A stretch of DNA of 15,911 nucleotides from an uncultured Selenomonadaceae bacterium (lineage in GTDB: Bacteria > Bacillota > Negativicutes > Selenomonadales > Selenomonadaceae), in assembly GCA_905236785.1 (NCBI GenBank), contig CAJOQC010000051.1:1-15911 (forward strand), given 5' to 3'. The translations under genes were made by a program, and so were the position numbers. Below are positions 1 to 15,911 of this stretch, piece by piece (the first letter of the stretch is position 1; each line of letters starts with the position of its first letter). The notes under the pieces are model-generated. The model was not told the DNA's origin and ran no database searches. It saw only the letters and a list, made by a program, of their open reading frames with translations.

Positions 1-146
1 ATGAGCTGACGAAGGACGAGGCGGACGCGTACATGGCGGAGATTTCGGATTTCGAGCTGGACGAGGCGGCGCTTTCTCGGGCTGCGGGCGGCGGTTGCTA
101 CTCGAACAGCGACAACCATGGGTCGGATCCGTATATGCCCATGTGA
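1..146 (+). CDS. C-terminal part of a double-glycine-leader RiPP/bacteriocin-like precursor peptide (5' end outside window)
   Basis: An open frame runs in from the left edge (first full codon at base 3) and stops at TGA 144-146, giving 47 visible residues. The first 31 look like the end of a RiPP leader: acidic and amphipathic (ELTKDEADAYMAEISDFELD, then EAALSRAAGGG), ending in a small-residue/GG motif of the kind cut by C39-peptidase transporters or similar proteases. What follows is a short core of 16-17 residues, GCYSNSDNHGSDPYMPM, rich in Ser, Asp, Asn and Gly with a single Cys directly after the glycines. This architecture is known for Nif11/NHLP-type and other GG-leader precursors; the modification class cannot be told from this fragment because no maturase or transporter is visible. 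It is the only gene on the plus strand and points away from the rodA operon, converging on it. The start codon and probably a further stretch of leader lie outside the window. An artefactual reading frame is possible but unlikely given the leader pattern. Confidence 0.72.
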   Translation, partial: ELTKDEADAYMAEISDFELDEAALSRAAGGGCYSNSDNHGSDPYMPM

Positions 147-153
147 TTTTTTT
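117..153 (+). terminator. Possible intrinsic terminator at the end of the precursor-peptide gene
   Basis: A 6-bp inverted repeat, CATGGG (117-122) and CCCATG (138-143), encloses the small palindrome CGGATCCG. It is followed by the stop codon and a run of seven T (147-153). The hairpin uses the last codons of the peptide gene. The T-run placement fits a Rho-independent terminator, but the stem is short and the loop long (15 nt), so this is tentative. Confidence 0.35.
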
Positions 154-192
154 GCGGCGGATTTGTTATCATAGGCAGTACCAATTCAAACC

Positions 193-338
193 AAGGAACC
201 TCTAAAAACTCCATTTTTCGTCTGAACCCCTCCGCCCTGCGGGAGGAACAGTCCACTGGACTGTTCCTCCCCTTTCAGGGGAGGTGGCGCGAAGCGCCGG
301 AGGGGTGCTATTTGAAAAAGAGTTTTTAGAGATGCCCT
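193..338. repeat. MITE-like stem-loop repeat, copy 1 (divergent core)
   Basis: The left end AAGGAACCTCTAAAAACT (193-210) is mirrored by the right end AGTTTTTAGAGATGCCCT (321-338), so the shared CTCTAAAAACT/AGTTTTTAGAG forms terminal inverted repeats. Between them is a nest of inverted repeats: outer CCCCTCCG/CGGAGGGG; a 14-bp stem with arms GGGAGGAACAGTCC and GGACTGTTCCTCCC around ACT; CCCC/GGGG around TTTCA; and GGCGC GAA GCGCC. The ends match copies 3 and 4, but the core stem-loops differ from those of copies 2-4. The right end reaches into the rodA stop codon (337-339), so the element directly abuts rodA. It fills most of the 190-bp space between the peptide gene and rodA; bases 147-192 show nothing else recognisable. 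It has no coding capacity. I found no convincing target-site duplication. Confidence 0.75.
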
Positions 339-1446
339 AAAACACCAATTTTTGTCGCTTTAGATTTATGTTCAGAAGCACCGCCACCGCCATTATGTTG
401 GTGGTGAGGGAGCTTACGCCGTAGCTCATCAAGGGAAGGGGTATGCCCGTCACGGGCATTATGCCCATGGTCATGCCCACGTTCACCAACACATGGAAAC
501 CAAGCATACTCGTGATGCCGACGGCCAAGAGCCGCCCGAACATATCGCTTGCGCCCTTGGCAATTTCAACGCCCCGCCACAGCACAACAAGATAAAGCAC
601 CAGCAAAAACGCCGCACCCACAAAGCCCAATTCCTCCCCAACCACGGCGAAAATAAAATCCGTGTGGTTTTCGGGCAAAAAATTCAGTTGGCTCTGCGTC
701 CCCTCAAACAAGCCCTTGCCGAACACCATCCCCGAACCTATGGCAATCTTCGACTGAATTATGTGGTAGCCCGCCCCCAAAGGGTCAACGTTGGGGTCAA
801 TGAAAACCATTATGCGGTTCTTTTGATATTCCTTCAAAAACTGCCACATCACCGGGAGCAACGCCGTGCCGGCGGCGAACAACCCAAAAAGCATTTTAAG
901 ATTGATGCCCGACACAAAAACCATGCCCAAAAATATGGCGATAAACACCAAGGAGGTGCCAAGGTCGGGTTGCTTTAGAACCAACAGGAAAGGCACTGCC
1001 ACATAAAGAGCCACGGGGGCAAGGTCTTTGAGGTTGTTTAGCTTGCCTATTCGCGGCTCTAAAATCCCCGCCAGGGAAACTATCATAATGAGCTTTGAAA
1101 ACTCCGAGGGCTGAATGTGAATTGGACCTATGGCAATCCACCTTTGCGCCCCCAAGGCCGTATGCCCGAAGAGCATGACCGCCAACAGCATGACAAGGTT
1201 AAAAACGTATAATTTATTGCCGTAGCGTTGAAGCAGTTTATAGTCAAAATTCATCAGAAAAAAGACCAAGCCTGCGTTTATAAGGGCAAACATTCCCTGC
1301 CGCTGCACAAACCAGTACCGTTCTTCGCCGGGAGTGTTCACATGGGTCGCGCTGCCGATGATTATTAAGCTCATAATGACTATAAGAGCCGTTGCCCCGA
1401 TAAGGGTAAAATCAATGCGGCGCAAAAAACGTTTGTTTACCGACAT
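337..1446 (-). CDS. rodA: RodA, SEDS-family peptidoglycan glycosyltransferase of the elongasome
   Basis: The product is a 369-residue, very hydrophobic protein with about ten membrane segments, matching the SEDS family (RodA/FtsW/SpoVE). SEDS proteins polymerise lipid II into glycan strands and work with a class B PBP; RodA does so for side-wall growth. Visible family signatures are the QPSEFSK motif (112-118), KQPDLGTS (158-165), the extracellular-loop PENHTDFIFA segment (258-267) with the essential Asp at residue 263, and the C-terminal MPVTGIPLPLMSYG (330-343). Length is normal for RodA and lacks the longer tails common in FtsW. Its neighbours (PBP2 and MreBCD upstream) favour RodA over FtsW. 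The ATG at 1446 overlaps the minE stop as TAATG, implying translational coupling; rodA is the last gene of the operon. Its TAG stop lies in the end of repeat copy 1. Confidence 0.95.
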   Translation of the reverse strand: MSVNKRFLRRIDFTLIGATALIVIMSLIIIGSATHVNTPGEERYWFVQRQGMFALINAGLVFFLMNFDYKLLQRYGNKLYVFNLVMLLAVMLFGHTALGAQRWIAIGPIHIQPSEFSKLIMIVSLAGILEPRIGKLNNLKDLAPVALYVAVPFLLVLKQPDLGTSLVFIAIFLGMVFVSGINLKMLFGLFAAGTALLPVMWQFLKEYQKNRIMVFIDPNVDPLGAGYHIIQSKIAIGSGMVFGKGLFEGTQSQLNFLPENHTDFIFAVVGEELGFVGAAFLLVLYLVVLWRGVEIAKGASDMFGRLLAVGITSMLGFHVLVNVGMTMGIMPVTGIPLPLMSYGVSSLTTNIMAVAVLLNINLKRQKLVF

Positions 1447-7649: not shown

Positions 7650-7789
7650 AAGGTAACCTCTAAAAACCCCTCCGTCAGCCCTGCGGGCTGCCACCTCCCC
7701 AAGAGGGGAGGCTCAGCCCTCCTCTTGGAGGAGGGTGTCGGCGCAGCCGACGGGAGGAGGTATAAAAGCGAGTTTTTAGATATGCCCTT
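7650..7789. repeat. MITE-like stem-loop repeat, copy 3 (complete, between dnaJ and mreB)
   Basis: Left end AAGGTAACCTCTAAAAAC (7650-7667) and right end AGTTTTTAGATATGCCCTT (7771-7789) form imperfect terminal inverted repeats. Inside are four consecutive hairpins: CAGCCC TGC GGGCTG (7676-7690), CCTCCCC AAGA GGGGAGG (7694-7711), CCCTCCTC TTG GAGGAGGG (7717-7735) and GTCGGC GCA GCCGAC (7737-7751). An alternative outer pairing joins CCTCCGTC to GACGGGAGG. This is the best-preserved copy in the window. It occupies most of the 216 bp between dnaJ and the chosen mreB start and may weaken read-through between them. A short open frame across it is a by-product of the repeat. Confidence 0.8.
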
Positions 7790-15826: not shown

Positions 15827-15911
15827 AAGGCAACCTCTAAAAACTCCCTCCGTCAGCCCTGCGGGCTGCCACCTCCCTCCAAGAGGGAGGCTTAAATCAG
15901 CCCTCCTCTTG
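15827..15911. repeat. MITE-like stem-loop repeat, copy 4 (cut by the window end)
   Basis: The end AAGGCAACCTCTAAAAACT (15827-15845) matches the left ends of copies 1 and 3. The core then follows: CCTCCGTC, CAGCCC TGC GGGCTG, a hairpin CCTCCCTCC/GGGAGG (one triplet longer than in copies 2 and 3), and the start of the third hairpin CCCTCCTCTTG. The window stops there. It lies about 55 bp upstream of the uvrB start codon. Confidence 0.75.

Follow-up and report, generated by a model that had tools for sequence, protein, structure and literature searches.

A truncated double-glycine RiPP precursor with a probable Nif11-like leader at a contig edge of an uncultured Selenomonadaceae bacterium

The window, the whole 15,911-nucleotide stretch of DNA that was analysed (G000:C51:1-15911), begins at base 1 of its contig, so that the gene at its left edge is cut and the region to the left of it cannot be read. 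The genome bin from which it came, G000, comprises 1.65 Mb in 282 contigs, is 79% complete and belongs to the same family as Schwartzia and the other Selenomonadaceae genomes considered below. A frame of 47 codons on the forward strand, open from the first bases (3..146), encodes ELTKDEADAYMAEISDFELDEAALSRAAGGGCYSNSDNHGSDPYMPM; its start codon and the 5' part of the leader lie off the contig. To the right, in convergent orientation, are genes which, from their translations, we take to be rodA-, min-, mre-, dnaK- and uvrB-like. The GC content at third codon positions was 0.81 in the fragment, a value drawn from 47 codons only, and ranged from 0.59 to 0.67 across 13 contig genes. The features of the window and the recurrent features of related loci are collected in Table 1.

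The repeat beside the precursor was predicted to form a long hairpin with branches (-80.9 kcal/mol). Parts of window positions 1-400 matched 48 further places in the bin, including one within the window itself, and ends resembling the repeat were seen by eye near 7770 and at 15830-15911. On 12 contigs of the bin, such matches lay within about 105 bases of a contig end and, therefore, this intergenic element probably breaks the assembly.

Table 1. Features of the window and recurrent features of related precursor loci.
Feature	Position	Strand	Basis
C-terminal 30 residues of Nif11-like leader, ending AAGG	3..92	+	homologues, alignment A2, P0001 family scores
17-residue core peptide GCYSNSDNHGSDPYMPM with three Ser and a single Cys	93..143	+	sequence; GCY start common among relatives
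Stop codon TGA	144..146	+	sequence
Palindromic repeat between precursor and convergent rodA-like gene, outside precursor	189..345	+	bin matches, fold
Nif11 leader, core and Hint-like domain	L094:9149-9874; L095, L096, L097, L103, L105, L110, L117, L140, L145 (three copies)		motif filter
605-aa-type pseudo-radical-SAM/SPASM protein	L056:429-2243	-	precursor loci
605-aa-type pseudo-radical-SAM/SPASM protein	L154:6073-7887; L147:10259-12046; L099:13463-15313; L108:2721-4517		precursor loci

Three proteins in a database of 5.8 billion matched the 47-residue fragment, with E values from 1.2e-10 to 3.2e-7. P0001 aligned with 85% of the fragment at 78% identity, while the alignment with P0002 spanned all 47 residues at 67% identity. 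A match in the genome of a relative had an E value of 1.2e-13 in a search of 100 genomes, and a search of 189 genomes of the family gave a homologue at 4.3e-15, the own bin being included in both. These homologues, found in the protein database, in the genomes of relatives and in the family search, rule out a chance frame, and the frame is the genuine 3' terminus of a RiPP precursor of the double-glycine type. The preliminary description had proposed such a precursor, its leader acidic and its core short, and leader homology and the position of the double glycine bear it out. The core boundary first assumed was also upheld by the alignment, in which the leader ends in AAGG and the third glycine is core residue 1.

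In the family search, 20 of the 188 other genomes matched the leader stretch at E<=1e-7 and, the window itself excepted, the matches listed broke off between residues 30 and 43 of 47, which is at the double glycine or shortly beyond it. Since these matches never pass residue 43, the leader is shared among the matching genomes and the core is not; homologues with a conserved leader and a variable core, which the preliminary description had named as a test, were thus found. Sister precursors, another of its tests, were present in relatives. As to the start codon and ribosome site, which for the window gene lie off the contig, a Shine-Dalgarno-like motif preceded 114 of 150 relatives, those of 166 with a usable upstream stretch, as compared with 22 of 150 shuffled stretches. 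Eight other genomes in the 100-genome search had precursor matches at E<=1e-3, and one relative had as many as 22 at E<=1. Further genomes had only matches with E values of 0.1-1, which were treated as chance. The same-genus genome G001 gave no precursor match in either search. The bin itself, at 79% completeness, holds one copy and no second Nif11 precursor; a TIGR03798 match within a 972-aa frame of another contig (G000:C43; E 0.027) was too weak and was rejected as evidence. Several paralogues per genome occur in the relatives, an expansion that is frequent and not obligatory for each family member.

At E<=10, neither NCBIfam nor Pfam gave a match to the fragment, because only half a leader is visible. 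Intact P0001 passed both TIGR03798 (36.7 bits, cut-off 32.3) and PF07862 (24.4 bits, cut-off 23.8). P0002 and P0003 fell below the same cut-offs, with 28.3 and 28.4 bits for TIGR03798, the match ending at the double glycine, and 15.1 and 15.4 bits for PF07862. A profile of 11 sequences including the window (A2) matched 9zn4, a Nif11-domain protein of solved structure, as far as its last double glycine (E 5e-4). PHROGs returned no match for the fragment and weak matches for P0001 and P0002. The earlier label "unclassified" was consequently abandoned, the leader being Nif11-like by the scores of P0001, and the homology makes it very probable that the fragment is a member of the Nif11-like-leader precursor family. 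The family trait of a leader ending in a double glycine followed by a short core is present. The N11P family (TIGR03798/PF07862) resembles the window gene in leader sequence, terminal double glycine, short core and NHLP-type exporter, although the window shows just the last 30 residues of the leader and its bin, unlike the relatives with their paralogues, has one copy and no maturase was seen in it.

The core of the window has its cysteine at position 2 and begins with GCY, as do many relatives, and the core itself was not found elsewhere. Its best matches were FCYTKKCSNNITPDPYIPV and GCYSKCNQDNWIPL, a score that was equalled by 29 of 300 shuffles that kept GCY. Placement in the group of CYTKKCSNNITPDPYIPV looked good by eye, but was rejected on the same count. 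The window core is therefore its own type on present evidence and, beyond GCY, none of 205 distinct cores resembled it significantly. P0001 and P0002 (ENA), with the cores GCYSKCALEGPR and TCYNKDCNENRYMGPM, share the GG-x-CY start, but both have a second cysteine and are otherwise not significantly like the window core. Among 129 distinct cores from 149 precursors of relatives, 28 have one cysteine and 10 have none, and 69 have CY or CW within the first eight residues.

A profile scan of genome contigs with the alignment gave 64 loci. The hosts were Schwartzia, other Selenomonadaceae and Selenomonadales, Succiniclasticum, Acidaminococcaceae, a few Spirochaetia and one Lachnospiraceae, together with one weak match in Prochlorococcus; two hosts, Selenomonas ruminantium HD4 and Succiniclasticum ruminis DSM 9236, are cultured. 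Many of the records name a gut compartment (rumen, reticulum, omasum or duodenum) or an animal (deer, goat, sheep or buffalo). A profile search of database proteins listed 6945 at E<=1e-3 among 7999 scored. Within P0004-P0016, several proteins of 135-161 aa, for example P0004, seemingly hold two precursors per frame (leader-core-leader-core).

Nif11-derived precursors have been tied to the NHLP transporters TIGR03794, TIGR03796 and TIGR03797 in one report (PMC2887384). The bin has an NHLP export system, on a contig other than that of the precursor (G000:C39), where an operon encodes an ECF sigma factor, two HlyD-type adaptors, an NHLM ABC1 protein with a Peptidase_C39 domain and NHLM ABC2. One adaptor (TIGR03794, 206.7 bits, cut-off 156.2), NHLM ABC1 (TIGR03796, 961 bits, cut-off 853.3) and NHLM ABC2 (TIGR03797, 725.7 bits, cut-off 709.4) exceeded their cut-offs. 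The C39-peptidase ABC transporter that had been anticipated near the precursor is thus present as a domain in the own bin, the sole place tested for it, and lies on a different contig; NHLP ABC transporters did occur on the precursor loci of relatives, as expected. A GG peptide of another type, MIEKMKKNALSDNQLDNVAGGTYLDSMQV..., with no family match, was observed in the NHLP operon (L089, 774-1130). Because the exporter contig encodes this peptide, it may be the cargo of the C39 exporter. The exporter may also serve the window precursor, and export of the precursor with cleavage after the double glycine is quite probable.

These data would also accommodate an ordinary short bacteriocin that is cut after the double glycine, its cysteine free or paired between molecules, and that is no RiPP. 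The bin has an NHLP exporter and no maturase was seen there, and cores with one cysteine or none occur among the relatives (28 and 10 of the 129). However, relatives with the same leader family share their loci with radical SAM/SPASM genes, and we regard this alternative as improbable.

A radical SAM enzyme whose SPASM domain exceeded its cut-off (52.4 bits, cut-off 27) was encoded on 19 of the 64 named precursor loci, in L144 just as a piece at the end of the locus, which agrees with the earlier expectation of radical SAM genes beside precursors. Its nearest models were CefB, TIGR04463, Clo7bot and PapB, all far under cut-off. Among the 100 genomes, it was found at E<=1e-100 in six of the eight with precursors and in none of the 92 others, with weak matches in two more genomes; as the genomes are related, the counts of six and, for a second protein described below, seven of eight are not independent. 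The fullest gene order was that of L094: an NHLM ABC1-like gene cut by the end of the stretch (672.8 bits, cut-off 853.3), NHLM ABC2, an ECF sigma factor, a metallophosphatase, a PTP-like phytase, a Nif11-Hint fusion, Nif11 precursors, the radical SAM/SPASM enzyme, a further precursor and an M15 peptidase. L103 repeats this order from NHLM ABC2 onward and L096 from the metallophosphatase onward, with an added TIGR03975 gene. A B12-binding radical SAM C-methyltransferase was observed at L040:5330-7249 on the minus strand (TIGR03975, 460.6 bits, cut-off 281.85), and genes of this type also stand on the precursor loci L093, L096, L111, L148 and L151.

In the 79% complete bin, searches for LanM (TIGR03897), YcaO (PF02624) and TIGR03975 gave no match, the best SPASM score was 14.4 bits (cut-off 27), and the radical SAM enzyme of the relatives was not found; G001, the genus mate, had two SPASM matches over the cut-off. 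A radical SAM step was inferred for the family because the radical SAM/SPASM enzyme shares loci and genomes with the precursors. By analogy, modification of the window precursor by such an enzyme may occur, a reading to which we give slightly under an even chance.

Nif11 leaders occur elsewhere with LanM or cyclodehydratase clusters, according to two reports (PMC2887384; PMC10783134), and with one cysteine and three serines the window core could be that of a lanthipeptide or azole precursor. Neither LanM nor YcaO was matched in G000 or G001, both incomplete. The LanM result lacks a positive control, because none of 14 control genomes passed the cut-off either, while YcaO was found in 5 of the 14. 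Neither enzyme appeared among the scanned neighbours of relatives, in chosen sets of 20 and 10 proteins. A lanthipeptide or azole identity is accordingly given little credence. The prochlorosins have the same leader superfamily and a double glycine (PMC10783134). They are modified by LanM, for which there was no match in the bin of the window, and they differ further in that some cores in the rumen set recur nearly unchanged across assemblies.

Another alternative is an orphan or relic: a horizontally acquired Nif11 gene without maturation enzymes, exported unmodified or not expressed. Several observations favor this reading, 1) no maturase of the kinds tested scored over cut-off in the bin, 2) the bin has no second precursor, 3) the genus mate G001 gave no precursor match and 4) the third-position GC of the short fragment exceeds that of the contig genes. 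On the other hand, the bin is incomplete, the gene is cut where linked genes would be, and the frame is intact to its stop codon. Over the 30 leader codons, the three nearest of 166 relatives differed from the window by 4 non-synonymous codons each and by 3, 4 and 9 synonymous codons, the nearest relative having the 9 synonymous and 4 non-synonymous changes, while the sum over all 166 leaned to non-synonymous changes (1836 as against 1413 synonymous). An orphan gene is judged rather unlikely, at a higher likelihood than that of an ordinary bacteriocin.

The best explanation overall, which is probably correct, is a RiPP precursor with a Nif11-like leader that is exported and perhaps modified by a radical SAM enzyme. 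The leader, about 65 residues long in relatives and visible here over 30, would be recognized by a maturation enzyme, most likely of the radical SAM/SPASM type, that would act at the Cys-Tyr start of the core and presumably form a bond. An NHLP-type ABC exporter would then cut the leader after the double glycine with its C39 peptidase, and the 17-residue core would be released outside the cell. Direct support in this analysis came from leader homology, the position of the double glycine and the NHLP exporter in the same bin.

In some relatives the core is followed by a Hint-like domain. A motif filter identified 12 such precursors on 10 loci, of which 8 have a core that starts with CY, and tblastn found Hint matches on 11 of the 64 loci. 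One fusion was scored and exceeded the cut-offs of PF01079 (31.8 bits, cut-off 29.7) and PF13403 (28.6 bits, cut-off 28.4). Hint domains are expected to contain TxxH and to end in HN. All eight aligned fusions had TxSQ in place of TxxH, with no TxxH elsewhere and no HN end. On several loci the fusions adjoin ordinary precursors and the radical SAM/SPASM gene. The fusion of Schwartzia sp. RGIG4989 (G192:C112, L097) gave the best leader match among the 189 family genomes, 72% over residues 1-39, and its core starts GCYTKNSN. It differs from the window gene, which stops 17 residues past the double glycine and has no Hint; the Hint domain was likewise not found in the bin of the window.

The second protein, of 605 aa, was present at E<=1e-100 in seven of the eight precursor genomes and, with weaker matches, in two others of the 100, G045 (a fragment) and G081, where the same contig holds an NHLM ABC2-like gene. 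The own bin had no copy. Its relatives have a SPASM-like tail that scored under the cut-offs (20.5 bits as against 27, and 19.9 as against 21.5). Profile matches were to SuiB (E 7e-4), an armadillo-repeat protein (0.0024) and PqqE (0.045). The best matches of the structural model among RiPP enzymes were SuiB (E 2.9e-8), PqqE (8.8e-8) and SkfB (5.6e-5), with TM-scores by query of only 0.27-0.31 and other barrel proteins following. The model, built from 5 sequences, is poor overall (mean pLDDT 56.6), with low confidence outside about residues 316-499 and parts of the N-terminal half, so the reading of this protein leans on residues 316-499 and on the sequence matches. The CxxxCxxC motif was absent from all five aligned sequences of this type and from two further ones, whereas the neighboring radical SAM enzyme has it.

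The recurrence of cores was followed in 166 precursors from 28 assemblies; counts of cores and leaders leave out L156 (Prochlorococcus), frames without a double-glycine match and duplicates within an assembly, and the core groups and pair comparison used cores of 10-60 residues (148 of the 166). Of 102 core groups, 23 span two or more assemblies. In 115 same-core pairs across assemblies, some of them Hint fusions, leader identity ranged from 0.53 to 1.0 with a mean of 0.79, as compared with means for different cores of 0.62 between assemblies and 0.67 within one. The core was more alike than the leader in 70 of 96 same-core pairs and the reverse held in 15, a tally biased, as are the averages, by the choice of pairs at a core identity of at least 75%. 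The telling fact is that leader identity is near background in part of the same-core pairs. The core RDVCYTNGCALKCVNNL, from Schwartzia and Succiniclasticum, was 100% identical, with 64% identity in the leader and 74% in the core DNA; the corresponding values for the pair with VKTCYMVDGCAFKCGTLKDC were 100%, 67% and 83%. In other core groups the leaders were 100% alike. On loci L093-L155, distinct genera, and Spirochaetia as well, shared identical or near-identical cores that follow leaders of diverging sequence. The recurrent cores are consistent with recombination between leader and core together with purifying selection on the cores, and metagenome chimaeras could add to the mismatch of leader and core.

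Literature searches that joined Nif11 with Selenomonas, that joined Nif11 with the Hint domain, or that combined rumen, RiPP, Selenomonas and radical SAM found no such work in the collection searched, while a search for Nif11 and rumen found work only on microbial mats and lanthipeptide mining. The fragment adds one truncated precursor to the known Nif11 family. The surrounding family is more novel, and the recurrent cores, the Hint fusions and the 605-aa partner in relatives go beyond the familiar picture of Nif11 peptides. The window gene might be an outlying member of a rumen-wide pool in which conserved, portable cores pass from one genus to another, and into Spirochaetia, joined to leaders whose similarity is sometimes close to background. 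Some precursors of this pool would have Hint domains, and a radical SAM enzyme would work with a partner that lacks CxxxCxxC; we hold this broader view only tentatively and consider it doubtful. If true, it would describe a combinatorial system, in contrast to the view of Nif11 peptides as hypervariable in the core, and a new two-protein radical SAM machine. The fragment leads to an extensive family with many members in Negativicutes of the ruminant gut. Selenomonas ruminantium HD4 has precursors (one at L147:9977-10216), NHLM ABC2, the radical SAM/SPASM enzyme (L147:8337-9902) and the 605-aa-type partner on one contig (L147), so that the recurrent cores, the Hint fusions and the pseudo-radical-SAM partner constitute a testable system in this cultured organism.
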